A stretch of 64,000 nt of DNA, taken from Streptomyces sp. GS7. Its GTDB lineage: Bacteria > Actinomycetota > Actinomycetes > Streptomycetales > Streptomycetaceae. Below, piece by piece: positions 5,249-24,341 of the stretch (its first letter is position 1; the number at the start of each line of letters is the position of its first letter). The position numbers and the translations under genes are program-made. Where the stretch lies: NCBI RefSeq assembly GCF_009834125.1, contig NZ_CP047146.1:4891501-4955500 (forward strand). Reading direction: 5' to 3'. The notes beneath the pieces were generated by a model. It was given only the letters and a program-made list of their open reading frames with translations. It was not told where the DNA came from and made no database searches.

Positions 5249-5271
5249 CCTGCTCGGCCCTCGCTTGTCTG

Positions 5272-5880: not shown

Positions 5881-5967
5881 CTCCCGGGTCGGCCACAGTG
5901 CCTCATCGGAAGTGAAGCCGTGTGGCCGGGGGCCGCGCGGTCCGGGCCCGCGGGGCGAGGAGAGGGC

Positions 5968-8343
5968 ATGCCGGAACGGTTCGACACAGTGCTGCGCGCC
6001 TACAGACGGCGGGCCGGGCTGACCCAGGAGGAGCTGTCGGAGCGGGCGGGGCTGTCGGCCCGGACCATCCGCGCGCTGGAGTCCGGGCAGGGACGGGTGC
6101 CCCGCATGGCCTCGGTGCGGGAGGTCGCGAAGGCACTCGGGTTGGGGGCGGACGACCAGCGGCGCCTGCTCGCCGCGGCCGACGAGCGGGAGGGGGCGGC
6201 GGGGTCCGTGTCCCTGGGGCGCCGACGGTATCTGCCTTATGACATACCGGACTTCACGGGGCGCACCGCCGAGGTGGCCCGGCTCGCGGAGCTCGTCGGC
6301 GGCGGCACCGCGAGCGCGGTGGTGGTGTCGGCGATCGACGGCATGGCGGGCGTCGGCAAGACCACGCTGGCGGTGCACGCCGCCCATCTCCTGGCCGACG
6401 GGTTCCCGGACGGCCAGTTCTACTGCGACCTCCACGGCTTCACCCCGGGGTACGACCCGGTGGGCCCGGCTTCGGCGCTGGAGGCGCTGCTGCGCATGGC
6501 CGGTGTCGACGGCGCACGCATCCCGCACACCCTGGAGGAGCGGTCGGCCCTGTGGCGTACCACGCTGTCGGACTGGCGGGCGCTGATGGTGCTGGACAAC
6601 GCCGCCGACGCGGCGCAGGTGCGTCCGCTGCTGCCCGGCTCCGCCTCGTGCGCGGTGCTGGTGACCTCGCGGCGGCGGCTCCTGGCACTGGAGGGTGCCG
6701 TCCCGCTCTCGCTCGGTGTGCTGTCCGAGGCGGAGGCGTGCGCGCTGGTGGCCCGGATCGCGGGACACGACCGGGTCGCCGACGCGCCCGAGGCCGTCGC
6801 CGAGATCGCCGAGCTGTGCGGCTACCTGCCGCTGGCCATCCGGATGGCAGCGGCCCGGCTCGCCCACCGGCCCGCGTGGACAGCGGAAGATCTCACCGCC
6901 GAGCTCCGCAGGGGCCGCCGCCGGTCCGGCCCCGGCGGCAACGATCAGGCGGTCAGCGCGGCCTTCGCCCTGTCCTATGCACGCCTGAGCCCGGGCCGTC
7001 AGCGGCTGTTCCGGCTGCTCGGCCTGCACCCCGGCGCCGATCTCGACGCGTACGCGGCCGCGGCCCTGGCGGGTACGGACGCGGTGACGGCACGGCAGTG
7101 GCTGGAGGAACTCGTCGACGTACACCTGCTGGAGCAGTACGAACCCCATCGCTACCAACTACACGATCTGCTCCGCCGACACACCCAGGAGGTCCTGCAC
7201 GAGACCGAGCCCCCCGCACAGCGGGAAGAGGCGGAACTCCGGCTCCTCGACCACTACCTGCACACCGCGCTGCACGCCCGCCCCCTGGTGGCACCGGGAC
7301 AGCGGCTGCTCCCCTTCGAGGTCGCCCGCCCACCGGCCGACACCCCGGACGTGAGCGACCGGGCCTCGGCCCTGGCCTGGTACGAGGCCGAGCACGCCAA
7401 CCTCGTCGCGATGATCACGCATGCCGCCGCGCGGGGCAGGAACGAGCATGTCTGGCAGTACACCCATCTCCTCCAGCATTTCTTCGACATCCGGGGGCGC
7501 ACCCTGGACTGGGTCAGCACCCACGAACTCGCCCTGGCCACCACTGGGGACCTCGACAACCGCCTGGCCCACGCCGAGATCCTGACCAGCCTCGGCGTCG
7601 CCTGCTGGCACGCCGGGCGCTACGAGGACGCCTTCAACCGGGGGCTGGAGGCGCTGGCCCTGTGCCGGGAGATCGGCGACGCATGGGGCGAGGCCGTCAT
7701 CCTCACCAACTTCGGCATCGTCCAAGGGCAGTTGGGGCAGAGCGAGGAGGCCATCGACCTTCACCAGCAGGCCCTGGCCCTCTACGGCGGCGTCGACGCC
7801 CCCTGGGGCGAGGCCCTGAGCCTGACCAGCCTGGGAACGGTCTACGCCCGGCTCGGGCGGGCAGCGGAGGCTCTCGACCACCACCGGCGGGCGCTCGACC
7901 GCTACCGGGGGATCGGTGACCCGTGGGGCGAGGCCCTCACCCTCACGAACATGGGCACCGGTTACCGGCAGTTGGGACAGTTCGGGGAGGCCGTCGACCA
8001 CCACGCACAGGCGCTCTCCCTCAGCCGCCGGATGGGCGACCGGCGCGCCGAGAGCGAGATCCTCAACGACCTCGGTGCCACCTACCACGCGGCCGGCCGC
8101 CGCGACGCCGCCCGCCGTCGACACCTGCGGGCGCTGGACATCGCCCGCGCCATCGACAGCAGCCCGCAAATCGCCCGCGCCCACCAGGGCATCGCCTACA
8201 CCCTGGCCCCGGACGACCCCGATTCCGCCCGCGACCACGCCGAGCGGGCGCTCGCGATCCACGGCGAGCTGAGCGCCCCCGAAACCGCCGAGCTCACCGC
8301 GTTCCTGGACGCTCTCGGTCAGGGCCCGGCCGCGGGGCACTGA
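5968..8343 (+). CDS. XRE-NB-ARC-TPR transcriptional regulator (STAND ATPase)
   Basis: A 791-residue regulator. Start placed at ATG 5968 after GGAGAG, where the HTH begins. Domains: HTH_XRE at about residues 6-60 (LRAYRRRAGLTQEELSERAG); NB-ARC ATPase from about 95, with P-loop GMAGVGKTTL at 125-134, Walker B LMVLDNA and the LVTSRR sensor; a winged-helix region ending LLRRHTQEVL; then TPR repeats from about 490 to the end (repeated WGEA...LTNLG, EA..HH..AL units). STAND proteins of this type switch on ATP binding and usually activate secondary-metabolism or differentiation genes. The 11-bp repeats upstream may be its own or a SARP's target. No partner gene on its strand. Confidence 0.88.
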   Translation: MPERFDTVLRAYRRRAGLTQEELSERAGLSARTIRALESGQGRVPRMASVREVAKALGLGADDQRRLLAAADEREGAAGSVSLGRRRYLPYDIPDFTGRTAEVARLAELVGGGTASAVVVSAIDGMAGVGKTTLAVHAAHLLADGFPDGQFYCDLHGFTPGYDPVGPASALEALLRMAGVDGARIPHTLEERSALWRTTLSDWRALMVLDNAADAAQVRPLLPGSASCAVLVTSRRRLLALEGAVPLSLGVLSEAEACALVARIAGHDRVADAPEAVAEIAELCGYLPLAIRMAAARLAHRPAWTAEDLTAELRRGRRRSGPGGNDQAVSAAFALSYARLSPGRQRLFRLLGLHPGADLDAYAAAALAGTDAVTARQWLEELVDVHLLEQYEPHRYQLHDLLRRHTQEVLHETEPPAQREEAELRLLDHYLHTALHARPLVAPGQRLLPFEVARPPADTPDVSDRASALAWYEAEHANLVAMITHAAARGRNEHVWQYTHLLQHFFDIRGRTLDWVSTHELALATTGDLDNRLAHAEILTSLGVACWHAGRYEDAFNRGLEALALCREIGDAWGEAVILTNFGIVQGQLGQSEEAIDLHQQALALYGGVDAPWGEALSLTSLGTVYARLGRAAEALDHHRRALDRYRGIGDPWGEALTLTNMGTGYRQLGQFGEAVDHHAQALSLSRRMGDRRAESEILNDLGATYHAAGRRDAARRRHLRALDIARAIDSSPQIARAHQGIAYTLAPDDPDSARDHAERALAIHGELSAPETAELTAFLDALGQGPAAGH

Positions 8344-10446: not shown

Positions 10447-13400
10447 GTGACGGACGATCACCTCCAGGCAAGAGGTCTCAACCGGCGACAGTTATTGAAA
10501 CGCGGAGGGCAAGTAGCGTCCGGAGTGGGCGCGTTGTGGGCGGGCGACGCGCTGGGCTGGGCGGCTCCCGCGCAGGCGCGGGACGAAGGTGACCGGGAGC
10601 CGTCGGTGACGGTGTCGTCGGGCACGAATTTCGCCGCGGCGGTCTCACCGGACGGGCGATGGCTGGCACTCGACCTGTTCACGGTGGTCTGGCTGGTCCC
10701 CGTCGGCGGAGGCCGGGCCCGCCGCCTCACGGAGGACGCACAGGACGCGAGCCGGCCGAGTTGGTCGCCGGACGGGCAGCGCCTGGTCTTCCAGTCGTTC
10801 CGCGACGGGTACTACCAGCTGTGGCTGGTCAACACCGACGGCACCGGGCTGCGGCAGCTCACCGACGACCCCGCCGACCACCAGGAGCCCGCCTTCTCCC
10901 CGGACGGCCGGCACATCGCCTTCGCCTCCGACGCCGAGAACATGAACGCCATCTGGGTCATGGACCTGGGCGCCGGAACCAGCCGCCGCGTGACCACCGC
11001 CAAGGCCCGTGAGATCACGCCGACCTGGTCGCCTGACGGCCGGCGGATCGCCTTCACGGTCGGCGACACGGCGATCGACGTGGTCGAACTCGCCGGCGGC
11101 GCCCGCAGTACGGCGGTGACCGCGCCCACCGGCACCACCCTGTGCGGGCCGGCCTGGACCCCGGACGGCACACGGCTCGCCTACACCCGGTTCACCGGCC
11201 GCACCGCCGACCTGGTCGTCGGCGAGCGGACCCTGACCTCCGGCGAGGACGTCTTCGGGTTCCCTCCCACCTGGCTGTCCGGCACCGAACTCGTCTACAC
11301 CGCCGACGGCCTCATCCGACGCCGCACCCTCGACGGCTCCGTCCGCGAGATCGCGTTCACGGCGACCCTGCCCCTGGCCGCGCGCGACTACCGCAGACAG
11401 GTGCGCGACCTCACCTCGCCCGCGCCGCGCCCGGTACGCGGCATCGCTAGCCCCGTCCTGTCCCCCGACGGCCACAGCGTCGCGTTCCGGGCGCTGAACG
11501 CGCTGTGGGTGATGCCGGTCGGAGGCAGACCGACGGCACGGGTGTCGGACGGGTTCTTCAACACCGACCCCGATTTCCACCTGGACGGCACGAGCCTCGT
11601 CTACGGCAGCGACCGCTCCGGCACCGCGAACCTGTGGCGGCTGAACCTGGCCGATGGATCCTCCACCCAGCTCACCGACGTGCCCCGGGGCGCGATGACC
11701 CCGCGCTGGTCGCCGGACGGCGGCCGGATCGCCTACCAGGACGCGGACGGCGCCATATGGGTGCTGGCGGTCTCCGACGGGTCGGTGCGGCAGGTGCTGC
11801 CGGCGCTGTTCCAGCCGGGGCGGCCGGCCTGGTCGCCGGACGGCCGCACCCTCGCCGTCGCCGCCGTCAGACCGGCGTCCCTGCGCAACAAGTCCGGCAC
11901 CAACCAGATCCTCACCGTCGATCTGGAAACCGGCGCCACGACCTACGCCGAACCCGCCGCGCACCGCTCCGTCGCCACCCGCGGCGACGACGGCCCGCTC
12001 TGGACGCCGGACGGGCGGAGTCTGGTGTTCGTCATGGAAAGCACGGCCTGGGCGCTGCCCGTGGACGGCGCGGGCCGCGCCACCGGGCCGGCACGGCAGC
12101 TGACCCGGGAGGTCACCGACGCGGTCTCGGTCGGTGACCGGGGCCGGACGCTGATGTACCTGTCCAACGGCCTTCTGCGCACGGTGCCGCTGGCCGGCGG
12201 CACCCCGCGCACCGTGCCGGTCCCCCTGACATACCGGGTGCACGAGGGCACCGACCGACTCGTACTGCGGGCGGGCGCGCTGTGGGACGGCGTCTCCCGG
12301 CAACTGCGCCGTGACGTCGACGTGGTGATCGAGGGGACGAAGGTCGCGGGCGTCGTACCGGCCGGCTCGGCCGTCGGCGGCCGGATCGTGGACGCGTCCG
12401 GGCTGACCGTCATGCCGGGGCTGATCGACCTGCACACCCACTGGTTCATGCGGGGGCGCGGGTGGGGTGACCGCCAGGGCAGGCTGTGGCTGTCGTACGG
12501 CGTCACCACCGCACGCTCGGTCGCCGACCCGGTCTACCAGATGGTGGAGACCCGCGAATCGTCCGAGGCGGGCGTCAGGGTCATGCCGCGTTTCCTCGGC
12601 ACCGGCGAGGCGTTGGACGGCAACCGGGTGCTGTACAACGCGATGCGCCCGGTGCAGTCGGCGGCGCAGCTGGACCTGGAACTGTCCCGGGCCGAGGCGC
12701 TCGCCTACGACCTGCTCAAGTGCTACATCCGGCTCCCGGTCGCGCTCACCGAACCGGTCGTGGCCCGGGCCCACCGGATGGGGGTGCCGGTCACCTCGCA
12801 CTACGCCTACCCGGCCGCGCACACCGGCCTGGACGCGATGGAGCACGTCGGCGGCGGCAACCGCCTCGGCTACACCCACACGGTGAGCCGCCTGGGCCGT
12901 ACCTCGGACGGTGTGGTCGACCTGTTCGCGCGCTCGGGCATGCCCATCACCCCGACCCTGATCTACGCCGCCGTGCTGTACGCCGAGGACCGGTCGCTGC
13001 TGGAGGACCCGCGGACGAAGGCGCTCTTCCCGCTCTGGGAGTACGAGTTGGTGGAGCAGCTGGCGCGGAACGCGGTGGGGCCCGCGGCGGACACCCTCCG
13101 CTTCCTGCTGGCCGGCGCCGTCGACCTGCTCAAGCGGGTGCACGCGGCCGGCGGCCTGGTGGTGGCCGGGACCGACGCGCCGCTGGACACCCCGGCACTG
13201 GCGATGCACCTGAACCTGCGGGCCCTGGCGCAGGGCGGGTTGAGCACCTACGACGTCCTGCGCACGGCCACCGCGAACTCCGCGCGGGTGTTGGGGCTGG
13301 CCGACCGGCTCGGCACGGTGGAGCCGGGGCGCTTCGCCGATCTGGCCGTCGTGGCGGGCGATCCACTGGCGGACGTCAAGGCCGCGGCGGCCGTGCGCAT

Positions 13401-13587
13401 GGTCGTGACCGGTGGACGGCTGCACTCGGTGGACGACCTGCTCCGCCCGTTCCGGCAGGCGGCGGCCACGACGGTGCGGCGGAACCGGATCGCAGCACCG
13501 CTGCGGGGCGCGCAGGCGGACTTCAGCCACGACTGGCACCGGCCCGGCTGGGTCGAGACGTCCTGCTCCTGCGCGCCGCCGCGCTGA
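10447..13587 (+). CDS. Tat-exported beta-propeller/amidohydrolase fusion
   Basis: A 1046-residue protein from a GTG start. The N-terminus NRRQLLKRGGQVASG...AQA is a twin-arginine signal, so it is exported folded. Residues about 50-580 carry TolB/PD40-type propeller repeats (FSPDGRHIAFASD, WSPDGRRIAFTVGD, WSPDGGRIAYQDAD). From about 600 comes an amidohydrolase: VMPGLIDLHTHW with the HxH metal pair, a central Lys in LLKCYIRL, His in TSHYAY and EHVGGG, and the catalytic Asp in AGTDAPLDT, ending in the family's TVEPGRFADLAVV strand. Such fusions are thought to cleave cyclic amide or peptide-like bonds; the substrate is unknown. It converges on the biosynthetic operon with a 13-nt gap. Confidence 0.88.
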   Translation: MTDDHLQARGLNRRQLLKRGGQVASGVGALWAGDALGWAAPAQARDEGDREPSVTVSSGTNFAAAVSPDGRWLALDLFTVVWLVPVGGGRARRLTEDAQDASRPSWSPDGQRLVFQSFRDGYYQLWLVNTDGTGLRQLTDDPADHQEPAFSPDGRHIAFASDAENMNAIWVMDLGAGTSRRVTTAKAREITPTWSPDGRRIAFTVGDTAIDVVELAGGARSTAVTAPTGTTLCGPAWTPDGTRLAYTRFTGRTADLVVGERTLTSGEDVFGFPPTWLSGTELVYTADGLIRRRTLDGSVREIAFTATLPLAARDYRRQVRDLTSPAPRPVRGIASPVLSPDGHSVAFRALNALWVMPVGGRPTARVSDGFFNTDPDFHLDGTSLVYGSDRSGTANLWRLNLADGSSTQLTDVPRGAMTPRWSPDGGRIAYQDADGAIWVLAVSDGSVRQVLPALFQPGRPAWSPDGRTLAVAAVRPASLRNKSGTNQILTVDLETGATTYAEPAAHRSVATRGDDGPLWTPDGRSLVFVMESTAWALPVDGAGRATGPARQLTREVTDAVSVGDRGRTLMYLSNGLLRTVPLAGGTPRTVPVPLTYRVHEGTDRLVLRAGALWDGVSRQLRRDVDVVIEGTKVAGVVPAGSAVGGRIVDASGLTVMPGLIDLHTHWFMRGRGWGDRQGRLWLSYGVTTARSVADPVYQMVETRESSEAGVRVMPRFLGTGEALDGNRVLYNAMRPVQSAAQLDLELSRAEALAYDLLKCYIRLPVALTEPVVARAHRMGVPVTSHYAYPAAHTGLDAMEHVGGGNRLGYTHTVSRLGRTSDGVVDLFARSGMPITPTLIYAAVLYAEDRSLLEDPRTKALFPLWEYELVEQLARNAVGPAADTLRFLLAGAVDLLKRVHAAGGLVVAGTDAPLDTPALAMHLNLRALAQGGLSTYDVLRTATANSARVLGLADRLGTVEPGRFADLAVVAGDPLADVKAAAAVRMVVTGGRLHSVDDLLRPFRQAAATTVRRNRIAAPLRGAQADFSHDWHRPGWVETSCSCAPPR

Positions 13588-13600: not shown

Positions 13601-14938
13601 CTACGGCAGGGCCCGCCGCCCTCGGCGCGGCGGGCCGGCGACCTCGCGGAGGAACTCCGCGAACCGCCCGATCCCCTCATCGATCCGATCGAGCGTCAGA
13701 TAGCTGCAGGACAGGCGAAGTTCGTCGGTCCCACCCCCGGAAAGGTAGAAGTGCTCCATCGGGGTCCACAGCACGCCGAACTCCGTGGCACACCACTCCA
13801 GTAGAGCGGTATCCACCCGGACGGGCAGCCGCACGCGGACGAAGAAGCCGCCGGACGGGCTGTTCCACCGCACGCCGGGAGGCGTCGCACCGCCCAGCTC
13901 GCGGTCGAGTGCGGCCAGCAGATGCGCCAGGTTGCGCCGGTAGTGCGCCGAGGTGGCATCGCCCAACGCGGCCAGCGACCCGCCGTGCGCGAGCAGCATC
14001 CCGCCGATGACCGCCTGGCACAGCGGCGAGGTGTTGACCGTGACCATGCCCTTGAGGACCGCCAGGTCGTCGGCGAGGACTCCCTCGGTGCCGTCGGCCC
14101 GTACGACCGGCTGGTCGGCGACGGCGAACCCGACCCGAGCGCCGGGCAGGCACACCTTGGCGAACGTGCCGAGGTGGACCACCCGGCAGTCGGTGTCGAG
14201 CGCCTTGAGCGAGGGCAGGGCATGGCCGGGCGGCGCGGTGAAGCCGTAGGCCGAGTCCTCGATCAGCACCAGGTCGTCGTGGTCGGCCACGGCCAGCAGC
14301 CGCTGCCGGGTCTCCAGGTCCAGCACACTGCCCGACGGGTTGGAGTAGTCCGGGGCGACGTACAGCGCGCGAATCCGCCGTCCCCGCTTGCGCGCCGCCG
14401 CGCAGGCACCGCGCAGGGCGTCGAGGTCGACCCCGTCGGCGGTCTCCGGGACCGGCACGAGGTCGACGTCGAGCAGCCGGGCGGCCCCCGTCATGCCGAC
14501 GTAGGCGGGTTCGACGACCGCGAGCAGGTCGTCGCGCGAGCGGCACAGCGCGCGCAGGGTGAGCAGCATGGCCTCCTGGGCGCCGACGGTGACCACCACG
14601 GACCGGGGCGGCACGTCGATGCCCTGGTCGTGGCGGAGCGCGGCGGCGATCAGGTCGTTGATGAGGCCGCGGCTCGGTCCGTACTCGTGCAGCAGGTTCC
14701 GGGCCCGCTCGGCCGTCGTGCCCCGGTCCTCGACCAGGTGCCGTTCGTAGCGCGCGGCGTACGCGGTGACGTCGACGTCGGCGAGGTGGGCGAGGTGCGG
14801 GGCGCCCGGGGCGAAGGAGATCGCCGACGGGTAGCGCGTCATCACCTCGTTGAGGAAGGCGACGGAGCCGAGCACCGGGTTCTCCAGGCTGGCGTGCAGG
14901 TCTCCCCCGGCCAGCACGAAGCCGGGCGCCGCACTCAT
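13601..14938 (-). CDS. Phenylglycine-type aminotransferase (HpgT/Pgat-like)
   Basis: A 445-residue fold-type I PLP aminotransferase. Lys261 in HLGTFAK is the Schiff-base lysine; YVAPDYSNPSGS and the later RLSCSYL (carboxylate-binding Arg) are family motifs shared with MocR/2-aminoadipate aminotransferases and with the glycopeptide-pathway HpgT. In the DPG pathway this enzyme converts 3,5-dihydroxyphenylglyoxylate, the DpgC product, to 3,5-dihydroxyphenylglycine. ATG 14938 overlaps the dpgC stop by 4 nt, so it is co-translated with dpgC, which strongly supports this role. It is the last gene of the operon. The preferred amino donor is not visible. Confidence 0.8.
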   Translation of the reverse strand: MSAAPGFVLAGGDLHASLENPVLGSVAFLNEVMTRYPSAISFAPGAPHLAHLADVDVTAYAARYERHLVEDRGTTAERARNLLHEYGPSRGLINDLIAAALRHDQGIDVPPRSVVVTVGAQEAMLLTLRALCRSRDDLLAVVEPAYVGMTGAARLLDVDLVPVPETADGVDLDALRGACAAARKRGRRIRALYVAPDYSNPSGSVLDLETRQRLLAVADHDDLVLIEDSAYGFTAPPGHALPSLKALDTDCRVVHLGTFAKVCLPGARVGFAVADQPVVRADGTEGVLADDLAVLKGMVTVNTSPLCQAVIGGMLLAHGGSLAALGDATSAHYRRNLAHLLAALDRELGGATPPGVRWNSPSGGFFVRVRLPVRVDTALLEWCATEFGVLWTPMEHFYLSGGGTDELRLSCSYLTLDRIDEGIGRFAEFLREVAGPPRRGRRALP

Positions 14939-16326
14939 GGCCGACCGCCCGCGCGGGACCAGGCGCGGTCCACCTTGCCGATGACGTCGAGGCTGTAGAG
15001 CCGGGTCGCCTGTACGTAGGCGAACTCCGCCATGTAGGTGCGGAACAGTTCCGGAGGTTCCTCGGCCAGCGTCAGCATCGCCCGGTTCGTCACCACGGCC
15101 GGGTTGTCGAGAGCCGACACCGCCTCCTCGATCGCGGTGTCCATCTCCTCCGGCGCCACGACCTGGTCGCACACCGCCGCGGCGCCCGGGTCGCCGGCCG
15201 CGATCCGGTCGCCCCACAGGATCACCCGGCGGGCCTGGCGGGCGCCGGCGCAACGGCTCAGGCGCAGGTTGCCCGCGCCGGGAACGATGCCCTCCTGTGC
15301 GGCGGGAAGGGCGAAGAACGCGCCGCGCTCGGCGATCACGCGGTCGAAGACCAGCAGCAGTTGCATGCCACCGCCGATGGCGAACGCGTCCACGGCGGCC
15401 ACCCACGGCTTCCCGGCGACGGCGCCGCCGGGGTGGTGCGTCCCGGCACCGGTGCGGTCCGGACGGTGCAGGCCGCGCTGGATCTTGCTGATGTAGCCCA
15501 GTTCGCGCTGCATCAGGAAGCCGGCGAAGGAGATGCGTCCCTCGTGCAGATGACGCAGATTGATTCCGGCGCTGAACACCCGCCGGCCCGCGTACTTCGG
15601 ATGCGTCATCACCCCGCCGCGCAGCACGCCGACACGGACCCGGTCGTCGAGCAGTGCCAGGTCGACCGCGGTCTCCATGTCCGCGATCAGGGTGTCGTCC
15701 TCGGCGTTGAGGCAGTGTTCGTTGTGCACGGTCAGGTGCGCGGCGGGGCCCCGGCGTTCGACGAGGACCGACTCCAGCTCGGCCCGGCCGGTCGCGGTGA
15801 AGTCCGCGAGCAGGTCCAGCGCCCGCCGTGAGGGTGTCCGCATCGCGTCGGTCAGATGGGCACCGGAGGCGGGATCGCGCAGGATCGCACGCAGGAAGAG
15901 CCCCTGGTCGATCTCCAGTCCCTCCTTGTGCGCCTGGATGTGCTTGCGCTCGGCGTCGAGTCGGGCCTCGGTGGGGACCAGGCCGGGCCACTGCTCACCG
16001 GCGGCGCGCAACAGTTCCGGGAGCCGGACGTGGTGGGTCCGGTCGCCGGTCAGGCTGCCGTACACCGCCTCGACGTGCCAGTCCAGGAAGGTGGCGCGCA
16101 GCCGGCGGGCTGCGGACAACACCCGTTCTGCCGCGGCCTGTTGGGGCGCGTCGCGCTCGGGGCGGGGCGGCAGGGCCGCGAGCGACCGGTCTGCTGCGGC
16201 GGCGTACTCCGCGAGGGTCGCAGCGTCTTCGACGAGGTTCCCGGTCAGGGGCGGTTCGGGAGCGGGCCCGAGGTCCGCGCCGGTGCCGGTGGCGGGCGGG
16301 GTGGGCGGGTGGGCGTCGGCGCTCAC
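14935..16326 (-). CDS. dpgC: DpgC-like 3,5-dihydroxyphenylacetyl-CoA 1,2-dioxygenase
   Basis: A 463-residue protein, close to the usual DpgC length. A helical N-terminal domain of about 200 residues is followed by a crotonase fold carrying the DpgC signatures: AGINLRHLHEGRISFAGFL with an ELGYI helix after it, the AIGGGMQLLLVFD oxyanion-hole region and AAQEGIVPGAGNLRLSR. DpgC is a cofactor- and metal-free dioxygenase that turns 3,5-dihydroxyphenylacetyl-CoA plus O2 into 3,5-dihydroxyphenylglyoxylate and CoA. Start placed at GTG 16326, overlapping the dpgB stop by 4 nt (GTGA); the longer frame upstream is not DpgC-like. Confident call. Confidence 0.93.
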   Translation of the reverse strand: MSADAHPPTPPATGTGADLGPAPEPPLTGNLVEDAATLAEYAAAADRSLAALPPRPERDAPQQAAAERVLSAARRLRATFLDWHVEAVYGSLTGDRTHHVRLPELLRAAGEQWPGLVPTEARLDAERKHIQAHKEGLEIDQGLFLRAILRDPASGAHLTDAMRTPSRRALDLLADFTATGRAELESVLVERRGPAAHLTVHNEHCLNAEDDTLIADMETAVDLALLDDRVRVGVLRGGVMTHPKYAGRRVFSAGINLRHLHEGRISFAGFLMQRELGYISKIQRGLHRPDRTGAGTHHPGGAVAGKPWVAAVDAFAIGGGMQLLLVFDRVIAERGAFFALPAAQEGIVPGAGNLRLSRCAGARQARRVILWGDRIAAGDPGAAAVCDQVVAPEEMDTAIEEAVSALDNPAVVTNRAMLTLAEEPPELFRTYMAEFAYVQATRLYSLDVIGKVDRAWSRAGGRP

Positions 16327-17060
16327 GGACGTACCTCCCGGAGTTCGCCGGCGCGCATCCGCTGGAGTTCGCGATCGCACGCGGCCAGGTGCGCGCCCAG
16401 AGCGTCCTCGAAGGTGGCGTCATGGGCCTCCAGCAGCAGCCGGCGCCGGATGGCCCAGTCCGTCCCGGACACGGTGCGCAGCGTCGCCAGCGCCGCGTCG
16501 AGCGCCGCCTGGGGCTCGTCGGTGACCTCGTCGACCAGGCCCATGGCCAGGGCGCGTTCGGCGGTGAGTCGGGCCTCGCAAAGTACGATGCGCCGGCTCC
16601 GGGCGACGCCGTACTGATGGACGAGCCGGTACAGCGCCATGCCCGGCCAGCAGCGGTCGTCGTTGCGCGGCAGCGCGATCCGCAGGTCGGTACGGGCGAT
16701 GCGGACGTCGGCAACCAGCAGCATGTCCGCGGCGGGCCCGGCGCAGCTCCCCTCGGCCACCGCGACGACCGGCGCGTCCAGCCGCTCGACCCGGCGCAGC
16801 GCCCGCTCCCACTTGTTGACCTCGTGTACGGCGACGCCGGGGCCCGGCCAGGGCGCCGTGGTGGCGGGCCCCAGGGCCAGTACGAGCACCGCGCCCGCGC
16901 CGGCGTCCTCGACCCGCTCCCGGGCGGCGTCGAGGTCGGCGATCAGCGCGGGGAGGGGCTGGCCGTGCGTGTGCACCCGGTGGTCGGCGGCCGGTCCCGG
17001 AGGTGCCTGGCCGTCCGTGCCCACCTGGTGGTCGGCGCGAGAATCGTTCTTGCGGGTCAT
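16323..17060 (-). CDS. dpgB: DpgB-like crotonase-family protein
   Basis: A 245-residue crotonase homologue. It carries the DpgB-type VNKWERALRRVERLDAPVVAV stretch, the oxyanion loop GSCAGPAADMLLVADVRIA and a C-terminal helix bundle. In glycopeptide pathways DpgB works with DpgA (and DpgD) to raise the output of 3,5-dihydroxyphenylacetyl-CoA, helping dehydration and aromatisation of the tetraketide. ATG 17060 with AAGGA about 10 nt upstream is preferred; an in-frame ATG at 17123 that overlaps the dpgA stop is a plausible alternative and would couple translation. The first 40 residues are low complexity. Distinction from DpgD rests on the WERALRR motif and length, so it is slightly uncertain. 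Confidence 0.8.
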   Translation of the reverse strand: MTRKNDSRADHQVGTDGQAPPGPAADHRVHTHGQPLPALIADLDAARERVEDAGAGAVLVLALGPATTAPWPGPGVAVHEVNKWERALRRVERLDAPVVAVAEGSCAGPAADMLLVADVRIARTDLRIALPRNDDRCWPGMALYRLVHQYGVARSRRIVLCEARLTAERALAMGLVDEVTDEPQAALDAALATLRTVSGTDWAIRRRLLLEAHDATFEDALGAHLAACDRELQRMRAGELREVRP

Positions 17061-17116
17061 CGTGCGTGCGTCCTTTCGCTGCGTCGCCGTGTCGGTCCTC
17101 GTGGTGCCCGCCGCGG

Positions 17117-18238
17117 TCACCATCGCGCCAGTGCCGTCTCGATCGTCGATCCCGGACCCATCGTCATCAGCACCCCGAGATCGCCCCGCGCCACCGTTCC
17201 CTCGGCGACCAGGCGCTCGTAGGAGAAAAGGAAGGAGCCGCTGGAGAGGTTGCCGTAGTCGCGCAGCACGCCGGTGGTGTGGCGTACGTCGTGCTTGGTG
17301 AGGCCCAGGTTGACCCGGACCGAGTCGATGACCTTCTTGCCACCGGAGTGCACCACCCAGTGGTCGACGTCCGTCCGGCGCAGGCCCGCCCCGGCCAGCA
17401 GCGCGTCAACGGCTTCCTCGGCGTGGGCGCCGACCACGTAGGGCACGTCGCGGTCGAGGAAGAAGCTGAACTTGCCCTCGTCGTCGTCCCAGTCGTAGCG
17501 CATGGCGTCAGCGGCCTCGGGGATGATCCGGCTGGAGAAGCCCGCCAGCGCGGGGCCGCTGGTGTCCTGGCCGGGCGCGTCGCCGGCCTCGACGAGAATT
17601 GCCGCGGCGCCGTCGCCGAAGAGGCTGTTGACGACCGACGTACGCATGGTGCCGTCGAAGACGTACGCCGAGGAGCAGGACTCCACGCACACCATGGCGG
17701 CCCGCTGGCCCGGGTGTGCGGCGGCCCAGCCGGCCACGGCGGTCAGGGCGTTGAGCCCGGCGTTGCAGCCCATCCCGACCACGTCCAGTCGGGAGCAGTC
17801 CACCCGGAGCCCGAGTTCCCGGATCAACAGGGCGCTGAAGCCGGGGGTGAGGAAGCCGGTGGAGGTGACGCAGCACAGGTAGCGGATGTCGGAGAGGCCG
17901 GCTCCCGCTTCCTTCACGCAGGTCTCCAGAGCGCGGGAGCCCATGTCGATTCCGGTGTTGACGTGCTTGCGCAGCAGTTCGCCCTGCGTCTCGACGCGCC
18001 GTTCGCGGTTCGGACCGGGCGGCGGCAGGGTCAGGTGCCGGGTGTTGATCGCGCTGTTGAGGAAGACGGAACGGATGCGCTCGTCGGTGACACCGAAGAT
18101 GTCGAGGATGTCCTGCTGGGTGTACGACTCGGGCGGCACCGCGGTGCCCACGGCGCGGATCCGTGGCAGCACTCCGGACGGTAACGTGCCGTTGTGCACG
18201 GCCGGTTGGGTATGGGGAGGTGCGAGCATGACGGTCAT
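17117..18238 (-). CDS. dpgA: DpgA-like type III polyketide synthase
   Basis: A 373-residue chalcone synthase-fold enzyme with the full catalytic triad: Cys158 in VVGMGCNAGL, His297 in WVVHSGG and Asn330 in YGNLSSGSF, plus the closing TMGPGSTIE loop. DpgA joins four malonyl-CoA to 3,5-dihydroxyphenylacetyl-CoA, the only type III PKS reaction that uses malonyl-CoA as both starter and extender for this product. The order dpgA-B-C-aminotransferase downstream, with 56-nt and 4-nt junctions, supports the specific assignment over a general resorcinol or naphthalene synthase. It follows the 27-residue peptide gene by 27 nt. Confidence 0.92.
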   Translation of the reverse strand: MTVMLAPPHTQPAVHNGTLPSGVLPRIRAVGTAVPPESYTQQDILDIFGVTDERIRSVFLNSAINTRHLTLPPPGPNRERRVETQGELLRKHVNTGIDMGSRALETCVKEAGAGLSDIRYLCCVTSTGFLTPGFSALLIRELGLRVDCSRLDVVGMGCNAGLNALTAVAGWAAAHPGQRAAMVCVESCSSAYVFDGTMRTSVVNSLFGDGAAAILVEAGDAPGQDTSGPALAGFSSRIIPEAADAMRYDWDDDEGKFSFFLDRDVPYVVGAHAEEAVDALLAGAGLRRTDVDHWVVHSGGKKVIDSVRVNLGLTKHDVRHTTGVLRDYGNLSSGSFLFSYERLVAEGTVARGDLGVLMTMGPGSTIETALARW

Positions 18239-18265
18239 GTGTTCTCCGGTCTGTGCGGTCGGGGG

Positions 18266-18349
18266 TCAGTGCGCGAGGATCGCGAAACCGCGGTAGCGCG
18301 GGATGCGGCGGCTGGCCGCGATGGCGCCGGTGCTCTGCGGTGTGCTCAT
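18266..18349 (-). CDS. 27-residue basic peptide in the DPG operon; possible precursor peptide
   Basis: This short gene is below usual length cut-offs. ATG 18349 has an excellent ribosome site (AGGAGAGGAGGAGA, 6 nt spacing) and the frame ends at TGA 18266-18268. The peptide begins MSTPQSTGAI and ends RYRGFAILAH. It is basic (five Arg, one C-terminal His), has no Asp, Glu or Cys, and has a hydrophobic tail. It lies in the same direction between the MFS exporter and dpgA, 27 nt before dpgA. Because the operon also encodes an ATP-grasp ligase, it could be a ribosomal substrate joined to a DPG-derived unit, as in pheganomycin. A translational leader for dpgA is the main alternative. Confidence 0.6.
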   Translation of the reverse strand: MSTPQSTGAIAASRRIPRYRGFAILAH

Positions 18350-18442
18350 GCCGTCTCCTCCTCTCCTGGCGAGAAGTCTGGTCGGAAGGCCGTCGGGCGG
18401 GTCGCCGGCGGGAAGGGGGGTGTCGTGTTCACCGTGTTCGCG

Positions 18443-19669
18443 TCATGCCACCTCTCGGGCGGAGACTGCTCGGTCGATGCCGTATCCGGCGGCGGCGAAG
18501 CCGGCCAGCACGACCACGGCCACCGCCATGGCCGACGCGGTCGCCGAGGGCAGCAGGTCGTCCGCGTTGCGCACGATCCAGCCGGCTGCCACGTTGCCCG
18601 CCATCTCGCCGACCGCGCTCATGATGGTGACCAGCGACAGCATCGCGGACACCTGCTCCTTGGCCACGGCCTTCCCGGCGTCGACCTGTGACTGCGGCAG
18701 CGCGAGACATTCGGCGAAGGCGAACAGCGCGAGGCCGAGCAGGACCAGGACGAGCGACGAGGTGAACGACAGCAGCACCCCGGTCCCGCAGGTGATCGCG
18801 GCCCCGGCGTACACCGCCCTGCGGCCGGTCTGGGCGAGGACCGGCATCATCGCCAGCTGGATCACGATCAGCGCCAGCGGCTCGAAGCTCAGGAACAGCT
18901 CCCGGTAGCCCGACAAGGCCGGGTTGACCTCGTCGTACAGCAGGAACATGGCCATGATGAACCCCATGGCGAAGTACGCGACCAGCGTGTACGCCAGCAC
19001 CGCCACCGGTCCGGGGCGCAGCAGCAGCCCGAGGCCGCCTCCGACGGCGAGCCGTTTGGCCTTCCCGGTGTCCGAGGTCAGCCGTCGCGCGGTCGCGCCG
19101 GCCCAGGCACCGCCCGCCAGTTCCAGCAGGAGCAGGAGCACCAGTGCGTACCGTGCCACGTGGAACCGGTCGGCGGCCTCGGCGGCCAGCGGGGCCAGCA
19201 GCAGCGCCACGTTCATGACCACGAAGAACAGCTGGAACGCCCTGGCCCGGTCCTTCTCCACGGTGGCGTCGGTCAGCAGCACCCGCACCGCGACCTTCGA
19301 GACCCCGCGGCCGAACCCCGCGAGCACCGCGAAGACGAACAGTCCCGGCGGATGCACCGTGGCCAGCAGCGCCACGAAACCGGCCGATTTCAGCAGTGCG
19401 GAGATGGACAGCATCCAGCCGCTGTTCACGCCGCGGAAGACCATCGGTACGACGATGCCGCCGATCAGCGAGGCGACGACCTGGATGGACAGGGCGAGGG
19501 AGAACGTCAGCGGGGCGACCCGGGTACCGCCGAAGACCGCCACGGGCAGCATGGTCAGCACGGTGGTCATGTCGATGTTCGTGACGAACGTGAACACCAG
19601 CGCGGCCAGGACCGATCCGCGGTCGCTGGTCTGCGTGGGCTGAGGAGGCGTCGTCTCAGCGGCCTGCAT
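18443..19669 (-). CDS. MFS transporter, probable product exporter
   Basis: A 408-residue protein with about twelve hydrophobic helices, starting SVLAALVFTFVTNIDMTTVLT. A basic loop typical of MFS proteins follows helix 4 (VLLTDATVEKDRARAFQ). No sugar- or amino-acid-specific motif is visible, so an efflux role is inferred from its place within the biosynthetic operon. ATG 19669 overlaps the O-methyltransferase stop by 14 nt, indicating coupled translation. 93 nt separate it from the small peptide gene, the second-longest spacer inside the operon and a possible place for an internal promoter. Confidence 0.82.
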   Translation of the reverse strand: MQAAETTPPQPTQTSDRGSVLAALVFTFVTNIDMTTVLTMLPVAVFGGTRVAPLTFSLALSIQVVASLIGGIVVPMVFRGVNSGWMLSISALLKSAGFVALLATVHPPGLFVFAVLAGFGRGVSKVAVRVLLTDATVEKDRARAFQLFFVVMNVALLLAPLAAEAADRFHVARYALVLLLLLELAGGAWAGATARRLTSDTGKAKRLAVGGGLGLLLRPGPVAVLAYTLVAYFAMGFIMAMFLLYDEVNPALSGYRELFLSFEPLALIVIQLAMMPVLAQTGRRAVYAGAAITCGTGVLLSFTSSLVLVLLGLALFAFAECLALPQSQVDAGKAVAKEQVSAMLSLVTIMSAVGEMAGNVAAGWIVRNADDLLPSATASAMAVAVVVLAGFAAAGYGIDRAVSAREVA

Positions 19670-20699
19670 GGGGTTCGGGCCTCTCCGGTGCGGGAAGGGA
19701 CAGCTCCACCACCGACAGAGGGGTACCGGTGGCGGTGACGTGGGCCGGGAGGAACCCCGCGGCGGTGCCGAGGGCGGAGAAGTCCGCCGCGGTGCGTTCC
19801 CGGCCCGCCATCAGGATCATCATCAGGACGTCCAGGGACCGCCCGACGGGGACGCGGCGGTCGTCGTCGAGCACCATGTCGACGACCACGACGCGTCCGC
19901 CGGGCGCCAGCGCGTCCCGGCAGCGGCCCAGGATCTGCGAGGCCCGCTCGTCGTCCCAGTCGTGCAGGACACGCTTGAGAACGTGGACGTCCCCACCGGG
20001 GGGCACCCCGTCGAAGAACGAACCGCGCTCCACCCGGGCGCGTCCCGCGGCGATCAGCGCGGCCAGCGCGGGGACCACCTCGGTCTTCTCCCGCGGCAGT
20101 TCGAACAGGATGCCGCGCGCCCCCGGGCTGGCCGTCAGCAGCGCCGCCAGCAGCGAGCCGTCACCGCCGCCGACATCGACGACGGTCTGGCCCGGCCGCA
20201 GCGGGATGGCCGCCGCCAGTCCGCCGTCCAGGTCGCGCGAACCGTCCCGCATGGTCGCGTCGAACAGGTCGCTGATCTCCGGTGACCGGGCGAGCCACTC
20301 GAAGAAGCGCTCCTGATGGGTCAGCTCGAACGCCGGGGTGCCGGTGCGCAGTTGCTCCACGAGCCGGTCCCAGCTGTGCCAGTAGCCCTCCTGCAGCTCG
20401 CAGCGCACCCAGTTGGCGATCCCGTCCGGCGCGTCCCGGCACAGCAGCCGGGACGCCTCGGTGCCGACGTATGCGCCGGACGCGTCGAGCCCCAGGGCCT
20501 CGGCCACCACCAGGTGATCGAGGACCCTGCGCAACGGGTCGACTTCGGTCCGGGTCTCGGCGGCCAGTTCAGCGGCGGTCATCGGGCGCCGTGCCAGCAG
20601 GTCCGGGATGCCCAACTCGACCGCCGCGTACAGGCACTTGCTGGTGCGATAGGCGGTGATCTGTCCGATCAGCCGACGCCGTACCCCGTCGCCGCTCAC
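19656..20699 (-). CDS. SAM-dependent O-methyltransferase (caffeate OMT type)
   Basis: A 347-residue class I methyltransferase with an N-terminal dimerisation winged helix (ELGIPDLLARRPMTAAELA) and a C-terminal Rossmann domain. The SAM motif is VVDVGGGDGSLL; FELPREKTEV, the catalytic-type LKRVLHDWDDE (His base) and GRVVVVDMVL follow. This family methylates phenolic hydroxyls on aromatic natural products. In this operon the obvious acceptor is the resorcinol ring of a DPG-derived intermediate. The GTG start at 20699 shares GTGA with the stop of the ATP-grasp gene. Family call is firm; the substrate is inferred. Confidence 0.87.
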   Translation of the reverse strand: MSGDGVRRRLIGQITAYRTSKCLYAAVELGIPDLLARRPMTAAELAAETRTEVDPLRRVLDHLVVAEALGLDASGAYVGTEASRLLCRDAPDGIANWVRCELQEGYWHSWDRLVEQLRTGTPAFELTHQERFFEWLARSPEISDLFDATMRDGSRDLDGGLAAAIPLRPGQTVVDVGGGDGSLLAALLTASPGARGILFELPREKTEVVPALAALIAAGRARVERGSFFDGVPPGGDVHVLKRVLHDWDDERASQILGRCRDALAPGGRVVVVDMVLDDDRRVPVGRSLDVLMMILMAGRERTAADFSALGTAAGFLPAHVTATGTPLSVVELSLPAPERPEPHAGR

Positions 20700-21661
20700 C
20701 GCTCCCCCACCCCGGTCAGCATGCGGTGGGCCCACTGGAAGAAGGCGTCGGCCACCTTGGTCCGCGCCGGTTCCGGCATCAGCGAGAAGCCGGCCAGCGC
20801 GGTGCCCCACTCGCCCAGCACCGGGCCGTTCTCGGTCATCAGCCAGTCCACGTGCAGATAGCCGGCGTCCAGGCTCCCGGCGATACGCAGGCACATCTCC
20901 CGTACGCCGGCGATGTCCGGGTCCAGTTCGGCGACACCGCCCTGCCGCAGGTTGGCCCGGTACCGGCCCGCGGCCGGACGGCGCAGCAGCGAGACCAGCA
21001 CCTCACCGCCGACCAGCATCACCCGCAGGTCGCCGGTGATCGGCAGGCACTCCTGGACCAGGTAGTTCTGGCCGGTCTGGGCGACCACGTCCAACGCCGC
21101 CGACAACTGCTCGGGGGTGTCCACGCGCAGTACCGCCGCGCCCATCCCCATCTCCCGGGGCTTGACCACGTACGGGCCGTCGCCGACGACCTCGCGCACC
21201 ACAGGCAGTGCCTGGCGGGCGTAGCGGCCGAACGGCACGGCCACCGTCCGCGGGGTCGGCACGTCCAGGCTCGCCGCCCGCAGCATCATCGCCAGTTTGT
21301 CGCGCTCCAGGCACTCGGGGCCCCGCAACGCCCTGTTCAGCAGGACCGAATCGCTGGCATCCACCGTGCGATAGAGAGCCCGCAGGAAGTGGGCGGCCTG
21401 CGGGTCGGCACTGACGTCGTCGACGAGGTAGCAGTGCCGGCGCGCCAGCAGGTCCTCGCCGCGGTGCAGCAGCCGCGGCCGGTCGGCCACGACGGGGACG
21501 AGTTCGTTGGCCGGCAGGAACCGGAAGGTGAATCCGTTGCGTTCGGCGGCGGCGGTGTACTCCTTGGTCATGTCCGCCTCGATGGCGGCGGCGTAGTCGG
21601 GCGTCAGGTCGTCGGGGTGGCAGATCCAGGTCAGTACGGGTTCGGTGGGCCGTCGGGTCAT
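20696..21661 (-). CDS. RimK-like ATP-grasp ligase
   Basis: A 321-residue ATP-grasp enzyme. Start placed at ATG 21661 with AGGAG 5 nt upstream. ATP-binding lysines appear in PYVVKPREMGMGAAVLRVDT, and the core GDLRVMLVGGEVLVSLLRRP...YRANLRQGG is the RimK/LysX-type motif with metal- and substrate-binding Arg/Asn. These enzymes make an acyl-phosphate from a carboxylate and join it to an amine, typically adding amino acids to peptides or carrier amines. In this operon it most likely forms an amide between a DPG-derived unit and an amino acid, an amine or the 27-residue peptide. It is shorter than the PGM1 ligase of pheganomycin and is not clearly orthologous to it. Confidence 0.83.
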   Translation of the reverse strand: MTRRPTEPVLTWICHPDDLTPDYAAAIEADMTKEYTAAAERNGFTFRFLPANELVPVVADRPRLLHRGEDLLARRHCYLVDDVSADPQAAHFLRALYRTVDASDSVLLNRALRGPECLERDKLAMMLRAASLDVPTPRTVAVPFGRYARQALPVVREVVGDGPYVVKPREMGMGAAVLRVDTPEQLSAALDVVAQTGQNYLVQECLPITGDLRVMLVGGEVLVSLLRRPAAGRYRANLRQGGVAELDPDIAGVREMCLRIAGSLDAGYLHVDWLMTENGPVLGEWGTALAGFSLMPEPARTKVADAFFQWAHRMLTGVGER

Positions 21662-21695
21662 GTCTCCTGGTTTCCGTACGTCCATGGGGTGCTGG

Positions 21696-22928
21696 TCAGT
21701 CGAGATCTCCGAGCGCTTCGGCGGCGCGGGCGATCTGCTCGTCGGTGTGCAGCGCGGATACGGCGAACCGCACCAGGCCCGTGCCTCGGGCGACGGTGGG
21801 GTAGAAGGCCGGGGTCACCAGGATCCCGGCCTTCCGCAGCCGTTCGGCCGCGGCCAGCGCGTCGGCCTCGGCGGCGAAGGCCGCGCCCCGTACCGGCGAG
21901 CGTTCACCGGCGTTGACCAGTCGGCCGTAGGTGTGCTGGTCGAACAGCTCGGTGTTCTGCCACAACCGGTCCTGCAACGGGACCACCGCACCGTTCAGGT
22001 GCAGCCGGGCCGAGGCCAGGTTGGCGCTGACCATGGGCAGGGCGATGGGGCCGCCGAAGATCAGCGGGTTGCCGAACTTGCGCAGCACCTTGGTGTCCGC
22101 GCGGTCGCGCAGCACGCCGAATCCGCCGGCGCCGCCGAACGCCTTGGACAGCGAGCCGACCAGGATCACCGAGTCGGGCAGGTCCGTGCCGAACGCCTCG
22201 TGCGCGTAGCCGCCGCCCTGGGGGCCGGCGATCGAGATCCCGTGCGCGTCGTCGACGTAGAGGTAGCCGCCCGCGGCCGCGGTCAGGGCGTTGAGTTCGA
22301 CGACGTCGATCAGCCCGCCCATCGAGCCGATGCCGTCGACCAGCACGATCGGGGTCCGTCCCGCGTCCACCGCCTCGTCGAGCAGGGCGCCGAGCCCGGC
22401 GGTGTCGTGCGCGTCGAACCGGCTGACCGGGCCGATCTGTTCGAAGATGCCGCGCAGTACCTGGATCGAGGCGTGCGCGGTGCGGTCGACGAGGAACACC
22501 GGTCCGGCCTCGGCCATCGGGTAGCTGGGCAGCGCGTCGGCCGCCAGCAGCGGCAGCACACCGAGGTGGACGTTGCCGACAGAGGTGAAGGCCGTGACCG
22601 ATCGCAGACCGTAGATGCGGTCCAGGATCGATTCCAGTTCCTCCAGGTCGTCCAGCCGCATCCGGGTCCGTGCGGAGGCGAAGTGCACGCCGGCGCGGTC
22701 GATGGCCTCCTTCGCGCTGTGCAGGAGCTGGGGGTGCACTTCCAACCCCAGGTAGGAGCAGGAGACGAACTCGACGGCCTCGCTGCCGTCGGCCAGTTCG
22801 ACCACCTTGCCCCGGCGGCAGTGGAAGACGTGCGAGGTCAGGTCGCGCTCGGTGGCGAGGGCGAGCGCGTCGGTCGTGTTCTCAAGGCGGTTGGTCAGCC
22901 AGTTCTTGGAGATCTCCAGCAGGGCCAC
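21696..22928 (-). CDS. Alpha-oxoamine synthase (AONS/CqsA-like)
   Basis: A 410-residue PLP enzyme of the 8-amino-7-oxononanoate synthase family. Motifs: EFVSCSYLGLEVHP, the cofactor-stacking His in RTAHASI, YVDDAHGISIAG, and the Schiff-base Lys262 in VGSLSKAFGG. The family condenses an amino acid with an acyl-thioester, losing CO2, to give an alpha-amino ketone (KAPA, ALA, sphinganine base, CAI-1). No bioF neighbours are present, so a biotin role is unlikely. In this operon the acyl donor could be 3,5-dihydroxyphenylacetyl-CoA or an acyl group activated by the adjacent PaaK-like ligase. GTG start 22928 has GAGGA 7 nt upstream. Confidence 0.88.
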   Translation of the reverse strand: MALLEISKNWLTNRLENTTDALALATERDLTSHVFHCRRGKVVELADGSEAVEFVSCSYLGLEVHPQLLHSAKEAIDRAGVHFASARTRMRLDDLEELESILDRIYGLRSVTAFTSVGNVHLGVLPLLAADALPSYPMAEAGPVFLVDRTAHASIQVLRGIFEQIGPVSRFDAHDTAGLGALLDEAVDAGRTPIVLVDGIGSMGGLIDVVELNALTAAAGGYLYVDDAHGISIAGPQGGGYAHEAFGTDLPDSVILVGSLSKAFGGAGGFGVLRDRADTKVLRKFGNPLIFGGPIALPMVSANLASARLHLNGAVVPLQDRLWQNTELFDQHTYGRLVNAGERSPVRGAAFAAEADALAAAERLRKAGILVTPAFYPTVARGTGLVRFAVSALHTDEQIARAAEALGDLD

Positions 22929-23000
22929 AGACAGTCCTCAGATGAGTGGGAACGTTCGAGTGCCGGAGTGGGGGGGGTGGATCCGGACTTGGGTCGGCGG

Positions 23001-24341
23001 TCAGAGCTCGACGAAGAACGGAGTCTTGCCGCGTGTGTTGCGCACGAAGTCCGCTGTGGGAACGTGCCGCAGGGTGAAGCCCCGGAAGCCCGGCATGGCA
23101 AAGACCCGGCCGAGGTGGTAACCCTCGCGCAGCCGCCGGAGCACCTCGTCGCCGGTGGGGCGGACGGCGAGCCGGTCGGCGAGCAGGAGGACGACGTCGA
23201 ATCCGCGGTCGGGGGCGCGCCGTACCTGGAACTGGCAGTCGGCCGGGTCGGCCACTCCGAGGCCGCGCAGCTGAGCCATGACCAGGTCCTGGGAGATCGT
23301 CGCGCCGTCGACGTTGAGCGAGCGGGGCACGCGTCCGGTCAGCGTGATCCGCGAGGTGGGGCTGCCGCAGGCGCAGCCGCCGGTGGTGTGCCGTATCGCA
23401 CGGTCGCCCATCCGAAAGCGCACCAGGGGCATCCCGGTGTCGGTCAGCGTGGTGGTGATGACCTCGCCTTCCTCGCCGTCGGCCACCTCGGCGCCGGTCT
23501 CCGGGTCGACCACCTCGACGAACATCGCGTCGTCGTGCACATGGTGGGTGCCGTCGCCCTGAAAGGGGCACTGGTAGCCGATGGGGCCCGTCTCGCTGGT
23601 CGAGTAGGACAGCGACCTCACCCGCAATCCGGGGATCGCCTCGGTCATGACCGCCGCGCGGGCCGCTCCGAGGTTCTCGCCGATGTACAGGTAGGTACGC
23701 AGCGACGCCAGCGACGCCAGGTTCGCCGGGTCGGACAGCAGGTCGGCGCCCATCGCGGGCGAGCCGATCAGCGTGTCGATTCGGTGTTCGCGGATGACCT
23801 CCAGCAGTTCCTCCGTGCGCATCGAGGTCCCCAGGGGATACGTCTGCGCGCCGAGGCGCCGGGTGAGGTCCTGGGCGAAGGAGAACGCCCCGTTCAGTTC
23901 ACCGGGGTAGAGGCAGTTGCCCACCCGGCTCGGGGCCGTCGTCAGCGCGGCGCGTACGCCCCGTGCGCCGAGGTGGGTGACCCGGACGTCGAACTCCCAG
24001 GAGTGGTAGAGGACTTTGCGCTTTCCCGAGGTGCCGCTGGAGCGCAGCACCATTCCGCTGTCGGCGCTGTCGAGCACCAGATCGGTCACCGCGGGCGGGC
24101 ACAAGTCCTCAAGCGTGTCGGGCGACATGAGGGGTAGTTCGGACAGGTCGTCCGCGGTACGGACGCCCTCGATACCAGGCCATCGGGCTGCCGCGGCGGG
24201 ACGTTTCACGATGGCGTCCACCGTCGCCAACAGGTTGTCGCTACGCAGGCGCGCGAGTTCGTCTGCTCCGAGAGCCTCCAGGTCGTCCGCTAGTTGAACA
24301 CGCGAATTGCTTGATCTTAAAGGGCGAACAGAGATCGACAC
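23001..24341 (-). CDS. PaaK-like adenylate-forming enzyme (acyl-CoA ligase type)
   Basis: A 446-residue member of the phenylacetate-CoA ligase branch of the adenylation superfamily. Visible cores: A3 loop SSGTSGKRKVLYHSW near residue 105, YSTSETGPIGYQCP (A5, aromatic substrate region), PLVRFRMGDRAI (A7), a cysteine pair CACG typical of the PaaK zinc-like loop, and TGRVPRSLNVDGATI (hinge). It should activate a carboxylic acid as an adenylate and pass it to CoA or an amine. It is the first gene of the operon and so likely supplies its starter acid; which acid is unknown. GTG start at 24341. A gap of 72 nt leads to the oxoamine synthase gene. Confidence 0.83.
   Translation of the reverse strand: MSISVRPLRSSNSRVQLADDLEALGADELARLRSDNLLATVDAIVKRPAAAARWPGIEGVRTADDLSELPLMSPDTLEDLCPPAVTDLVLDSADSGMVLRSSGTSGKRKVLYHSWEFDVRVTHLGARGVRAALTTAPSRVGNCLYPGELNGAFSFAQDLTRRLGAQTYPLGTSMRTEELLEVIREHRIDTLIGSPAMGADLLSDPANLASLASLRTYLYIGENLGAARAAVMTEAIPGLRVRSLSYSTSETGPIGYQCPFQGDGTHHVHDDAMFVEVVDPETGAEVADGEEGEVITTTLTDTGMPLVRFRMGDRAIRHTTGGCACGSPTSRITLTGRVPRSLNVDGATISQDLVMAQLRGLGVADPADCQFQVRRAPDRGFDVVLLLADRLAVRPTGDEVLRRLREGYHLGRVFAMPGFRGFTLRHVPTADFVRNTRGKTPFFVEL

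Follow-up and report, generated by a model that had tools for sequence, protein, structure and literature searches.

The papABCDEF operon of Pseudomonas fluorescens SBW25, which was reportedly described by Masuo et al. in 2020, encodes what we take to be an alpha-oxoamine synthase (AONS), PapD, and the product of an FAD gene, PapF. According to excerpts of two sources, papABC make 4-aminophenylalanine, and a C-acetyltransferase acting on this amino acid yields an aminoketone, which condenses spontaneously to a dihydropyrazine that is oxidized to a pyrazine (PMC9814548, PMC9700740). Another aryl amino acid, 3,5-dihydroxyphenylglycine (DPG), is supplied in glycopeptide clusters by DpgA, DpgB, DpgC, and an HpgT-like aminotransferase. 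An earlier note on the DNA studied here held that, in known clusters, DPG feeds glycopeptide or related NRPS lines; DPG-type genes do, however, have precedents outside the glycopeptides. The venemycin and kendomycin clusters have such genes, and their glyoxylate product is proposed to be converted into 3,5-dihydroxybenzoate, which then serves a type I PKS (PMC5132015, in excerpt). Pheganomycin loci carry type III PKS genes, and their ATP-grasp ligase, PGM1, couples a dihydroxyphenyl amino acid with a core peptide (PMC8939145, in excerpt; pheganomycin is also mentioned in an excerpt of PMC6511847). The literature searched by title and abstract opening contained no paper joining DPG genes with an AONS and no characterized cluster with the gene set described below, as the earlier note had supposed, and the excerpted text of a pyrazine review that cites Masuo et al. 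offered nothing closer (PMC11314619).

Here we report the analysis of a 64-kb window, the whole stretch of DNA examined, which corresponds to positions 4891501-4955500 of the 9.07 Mb single-contig genome of Streptomyces sp. GS7. Its minus strand carries, at 24341-13601, ten tightly packed genes with the order ligase, AONS, ATP-grasp ligase, O-methyltransferase (19656-20699; PF00891, Methyltransf_2, 135.6 bits; PF08100), MFS exporter (18443-19669; PF07690), 27-codon ORF, DpgA, DpgB, DpgC, and HpgT-like aminotransferase. All are intact frames with high third-position GC, separated by -14 to +93 nt, and this inventory agrees with that of the earlier note, as does the lack of any NRPS or PKS module in the window. 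It holds no condensation domain (16 genome-wide, the nearest ending ~69 kb from the operon) and no ketoacyl synthase domain (64 genome-wide, the nearest ending ~53 kb away). DPG appears to go to the C-C bond-forming AONS and not to a peptide assembly line, the product therefore probably being a small aminoketone, and we give roughly even chances to the reading that the aminoketone pathway familiar from pap clusters is here fed with DPG.

The genes for DPG supply match those of glycopeptide clusters, although in contrast to such clusters there is no NRPS condensation domain within ~69 kb. DpgA (17117-18238; NF042429, 632 bits against a cut-off of 425), the predicted type III PKS for 3,5-dihydroxyphenylacetyl-CoA, DpgB (16323-17060; NF042431, 215 bits against 140), and DpgC (14935-16326; NF042432, 571.5 bits against 530), the predicted dioxygenase that gives 3,5-dihydroxyphenylglyoxylate, all exceed the curated NCBIfam cut-offs, and the solved DpgC structure 2np9 matches the window protein with 456 bits over most of its length. 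The HpgT-like aminotransferase (13601-14938; PF00155) matched no equivalog model above cut-off in the NCBIfam search. Among 29 DpgA loci from Streptomycetaceae (L032-L060), eight have a homologue of this enzyme within the short DpgA flanks, with identities of 48-51% in seven of them and a partial match at 63% in L052; from this homology and the adjacency to DpgA, the aminotransferase is presumed to convert the glyoxylate to DPG. The route to DPG looks complete, and the phylogenetic check of the type III PKS, of which a placement outside the DpgA clade would have told against the earlier assignment, put the enzyme among the DpgA homologues and far from the lone outgroup (39 rows, 37 different, the single outgroup row being on a very long branch). 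The DpgA proteins of AONS-linked DPG clusters are scattered in this tree, where the label needs four changes, and were not found to form a single clade. Among 394 sampled Streptomycetaceae genomes, DpgA was found in 61, the window genome having one match at E <= 1e-60, and AONS at E <= 1e-100 in seven. The AONS search within the DpgA survey covered 63 genomes, two of them without DpgA; the only close AONS among the 61 DpgA genomes was the window's own, with a 35% relative in genome G380, so that the pairing of DPG genes with AONS is rare in the Streptomycetaceae.

The defining enzyme of the cluster is the AONS (21696-22928; NF005697, 379.5 bits against a cut-off of 342), which belongs to a family with ties to the papABCDEF-type pathway; the earlier note had named the gene without noticing these ties. 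Its model matches alpha-oxoamine synthases, and its fold and PLP-site residues agree with this assignment. The presumed catalytic residues, to which we assign PLP-site roles by assumption, are invariant among 34 members, and the closest structure is Alb29, solved with L-glutamate. A scan with an alignment of three AONS against 84,980 species genomes gave 97 relatives, of which 80 loci were kept. By tblastn, 71 of these have an aminodeoxychorismate synthase beside the AONS, indicating a 4-aminophenylalanine-type supply, and most of the 71 also have mutase and prephenate dehydrogenase genes. DpgA is found in four loci, from S. albospinus (L063), S. odonnellii (L067), Streptomyces sp. NP-1717 (L068), and Micromonospora sp. 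HM5-17 (L070); four loci have neither gene (L064, L138, L139, and L142), and in L077 a fragment of the synthase is cut by the contig end. Beside the window AONS, tblastn found no aminodeoxychorismate synthase; DpgA is there instead. The 71 loci of the one kind against four of the other suggest that a constant AONS is combined with exchangeable supplies of the aryl amino acid.

In the AONS tree, the DPG-type enzymes fall outside a 73-row branch (100/99) of the 4-aminophenylalanine type, which puts the window AONS in the same family as the pap-type enzymes but in a different clade, at 46-50% identity to the aligned proteobacterial proteins. Positions 293-294 are GP in all five DPG-type AONS versus H/Q and S/T in 71 of 71. 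The DPG-type enzymes form a grade that requires two changes on the tree, and they too were not found as a single clade.

The pap-type operons proper are represented by 32 proteobacterial loci from Pseudomonas, Photorhabdus, Photobacterium, Vibrio, and Paucimonas, all of which have ThiO-like FAD, PrmC-like, AONS, chorismate mutase-like, and aminodeoxychorismate synthase genes; prephenate dehydrogenase and MFS genes are present in all except L117, which is cut. This content agrees with what the excerpted sources give for papABCDEF of P. fluorescens SBW25. The 80 loci include ten from Photorhabdus (L096, L100, L103, L105, L106, L110, L111, L118, L121, and L132), each of which carries a pap-type operon, and no paper naming it in this genus was found in the literature searched. 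Like the SBW25 operon, the window combines an AONS of this family with dedicated genes for an aryl amino acid, but it has DPG genes in place of those for 4-aminophenylalanine, lacks the PrmC-like gene and the ThiO-like oxidase gene (which we took as the dihydropyrazine oxidase and which had no match in the window), and adds the ligase, ATP-grasp, O-methyltransferase, and amidohydrolase genes. With the venemycin and kendomycin clusters it shares the employment of DpgA-C homologues outside glycopeptides, but it has an HpgT-like aminotransferase and an AONS, and no PKS module nearby.

Four further loci combine DPG genes with the AONS. The S. albospinus locus is ~94-95% identical to the window at the DNA level and therefore provides little independent evidence. 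The Micromonospora locus (L070) has nine genes in the window's order, the small ORF being missing; in it, the genes for the ligase and an aspartate decarboxylase overlap, so that beta-alanine may enter the pathway. In L067 and L068, which are rearranged, the ATP-grasp and MFS genes lie further upstream, separated from the rest by the gene of a LuxR-type regulator; an enoyl-CoA hydratase gene precedes the ligase. A tblastn search of the four DPG loci with a PKS protein gave no match. The AONS of L064 (Amycolatopsis anabasis) has the GP signature in a locus without DPG genes, and the idea that the signature predicts such genes for L064 was rejected: the DpgA of this genome (70% identity) is on another contig, adjoining a giant gene of which the first third, the part scanned, encodes a modular type I PKS as in kendomycin-type clusters, and so hardly supports DPG supply to L064. 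Upstream of the AONS-MFS-ligase-amidohydrolase set, L064 carries at 176-6469 LysX-, LysY-, and LysZ-like genes, a second ATP-grasp gene, and an aminotransferase-like gene (the LysZ-like and aminotransferase-like names were assigned by eye), perhaps for the supply of another amino acid. A short contig labelled Melainabacteria (L138, 1-4283) encodes a ligase and an AONS 63% and 73% identical to those of the window, by either contamination or transfer. DAHP synthase genes beside the AONS clusters of L076 (15215-16255) and L091 (1918-3360) are in line with an extra chorismate supply.

The first gene of the operon (23001-24341) encodes a PaaK-like AMP-forming ligase, supported by PF00501 and NCBIfam ligase matches below cut-off. 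Its nearest solved chains are AjiA1, PaaK-like, and phenylacetate-CoA ligases, and it carries an SSGTSGK motif and a C-terminal GKTPFF. The ATP-grasp ligase (20696-21661) is nearest to RimK and LysX, PGM1 being absent among the matches listed. Genes for the ligase, the ATP-grasp protein, and the MFS protein are kept in the window and in all four DPG loci, and the ligase is absent from the 32 pap-type proteobacterial loci. A second AMP-ligase gene occurs in 26 loci (L069, L071-L079, L081-L084, L086, L088-L090, L092, L137, L141, and others), and a Mycolicibacterium member scores 358.6 bits against the AvaA6 diazotase model, below its cut-off of 975. Elsewhere in the window, the minus-strand stretch 40727-41983, within a 461-codon ORF (40685-42070), shows 28% identity over 429 residues to the start of the giant L152 PKS protein and, by its place, probably encodes an AMP-forming ligase.

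The gene list given earlier overlooked a gene at 10447-13587 on the plus strand, which is convergent with the operon and lies 13 nt from the stop of the HpgT-like gene. It encodes a TolB-propeller/amidohydrolase (PD40 repeats, Amidohydro_1) with a twin-arginine motif seen by eye at the N terminus, from which Tat export is predicted. The gene is present in 24 of 83 AONS loci (the 80 scanned plus L061, L062, and the window, L061 being nearly identical to L137), being convergent in the window and L063 and downstream on the same strand in L064, L068, and L070; the L067 stretch ends before this position could show. Of 57 genomes checked, including the window's own, a match to the amidohydrolase part at >=50% identity was found in all seven with AONS versus none of the 50 without, 21 of which have a more distant relative at 36-41% identity; three of the seven carry it ~26-30 kb away from the AONS. 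A GNAT acetyltransferase gene (PF13302 in the four representatives checked) accompanies 19 of the 24 amidohydrolase loci, and the five loci without it, the window, L063, L064, L068, and L070, all have an ATP-grasp gene, which gave rise to the idea of a cap that is added, exported, and removed. The split is not clean, since six of the 24 loci have both genes and another 13 possess GNAT but none of the ATP-grasp types searched for, although other types could escape such a search. The amidohydrolase is therefore not a strict partner of ATP-grasp. Some 8 kb beyond the amidohydrolase gene, the window contains an aspartate decarboxylase gene, panD (1635-2054, minus strand), which we rejected as a cluster gene since it is the genome's only copy; panD genes also occur near the AONS in L070, L089, and L137.

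In the pathway that we propose, DpgA, DpgB, DpgC, and the HpgT-like enzyme would make DPG, their identities resting on sequence and their chemistry on the known families, and DPG would replace 4-aminophenylalanine as the substrate of the AONS. By analogy with its family, the AONS would decarboxylate DPG and link its alpha carbon to an acyl group, yielding a 1-amino-1-(3,5-dihydroxyphenyl)alkan-2-one; the donor may be acetyl-CoA or an acyl-CoA from the PaaK-like ligase. The O-methyltransferase would then methylate a resorcinol hydroxyl, and the RimK-like ligase would probably cap the amine with an amino-acid or other acyl group, which would block spontaneous dimerization to a pyrazine. The MFS protein would export the product, and the Tat-exported amidohydrolase may act on it outside, perhaps by removing the cap, which is the weakest step. 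The DPG-fed pathway is favored by the exchanged aryl amino acid supply, by the pap-type gene content of the proteobacterial loci, by the invariant AONS residues, by the separate position of the DPG-type AONS and their GP signature, by the same gene order in L070, and by the distribution of the amidohydrolase and of the GNAT and ATP-grasp genes beside it. It is disfavored by the 46-50% identity to the proteobacterial AONS, by the GP signature of L064 in a locus without DPG genes, by the aspartate decarboxylase gene of L070, by the distance of the amidohydrolase from the AONS in three genomes, by the absence of the pap oxidase and PrmC-like genes, by the grade formed by the DPG-type AONS and the scatter of DpgA, and by the absence of the ligase from the pap-type proteobacterial loci. 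The cap model is weakened by the amidohydrolase loci in which GNAT accompanies ATP-grasp (6 of 24) or occurs without it (13 of 24), and by six further loci with GNAT and ATP-grasp genes and no amidohydrolase within the stretch examined. We advance only as a tentative and rather doubtful extension that resorcinol aminoketones form a new class, which would be capped inside the cell by ATP-grasp enzymes (GNAT in sister clusters) and, once exported, would have the cap removed by a dedicated amidohydrolase that itself leaves the cell by the Tat route, in a scheme common to a large unrecognized group of actinobacterial clusters with exchangeable 4-aminophenylalanine or DPG supply.

The roles of the substrates could also be reversed, with ligase-activated DPG or 3,5-dihydroxyphenylacetyl-CoA as the acyl donor and the AONS joining another amino acid to give a ketone-containing pseudo-dipeptide, of the kind exemplified by ketomemicin and arphamenine. 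We consider this unlikely, though it agrees with the ligase being present in the window and all four DPG loci, with several matched solved ligases being named phenylacetate-CoA ligase, and with L-glutamate in the Alb29 structure. The 32 pap-type proteobacterial loci use the AONS family without a ligase, the CoA ester is consumed by DpgC, and an excerpt on the pap pathway reports that it is the aryl amino acid that becomes acetylated (PMC9700740). A little less likely still is a bis(3,5-dihydroxyphenyl)pyrazine formed by dimerization, for which the ATP-grasp protein and the ligase would merely serve decoration or detoxification. The related pap pathway does end in a pyrazine (PMC9814548, PMC9700740, in excerpt), but the pap-type FAD oxidase gene is absent from the window and the DPG loci examined, and the ligase, ATP-grasp, and MFS genes are retained throughout.

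Far less probable is a pheganomycin-like peptide, in which the ATP-grasp ligase would join a DPG unit to a 27-residue ribosomal peptide encoded by the small ORF (18266-18349, minus strand), which the earlier note had counted as a component of the cluster. The window resembles pheganomycin loci, as excerpted in PMC8939145, in combining DPG-type genes with an ATP-grasp ligase outside a glycopeptide context, and the ORF follows a strong SD-like stretch, AGGAGAGGAGGAGA, just upstream of its start (18349-18266) and may be translated, since, of the changes that separate it from its L063 counterpart, four are synonymous and one alters an amino acid. However, a search over 82 loci, the window excluded, returned L063 at 81 bits and nothing else above 28 bits; the scanned intergenic stretches of L067, L068, and L070 contain no similar ORF, and in L070 the MFS and DpgA genes are only 3 nt apart. 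Among these loci, the ORF has no counterpart beyond this genome and S. albospinus, and we rejected it as a precursor for this lack of conservation; it is lineage-specific and probably has no role in the pathway. The ATP-grasp ligase of the window is RimK/LysX-like, and the window differs from pheganomycin loci in having an AONS and in lacking a conserved peptide and a nearby amidinotransferase gene, the sole genome match to the amidinotransferase-type family PF02274 being at position 6922475, ~2 Mb from the operon. Equally remote is the reading in which the operon does nothing more than provide DPG for an NRPS encoded at another site; the genome has NRPS genes, but the nearest condensation domain is ~69 kb off, and the AONS, ligase, ATP-grasp, and MFS genes of four further DPG loci would be left unexplained.

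If the DPG-fed aminoketone pathway is correct, decarboxylative C-C bond formation would join peptide assembly and benzoate starter units as a third fate of DPG-type units, and a large actinobacterial AONS family is linked to a pathway reported in Pseudomonas. The contrast at AONS positions 293-294, GP versus mostly HS, constitutes a natural comparison for testing substrate choice, and the co-occurrence of the amidohydrolase suggests that a processing or self-protection step, undescribed in the literature searched, is conserved.
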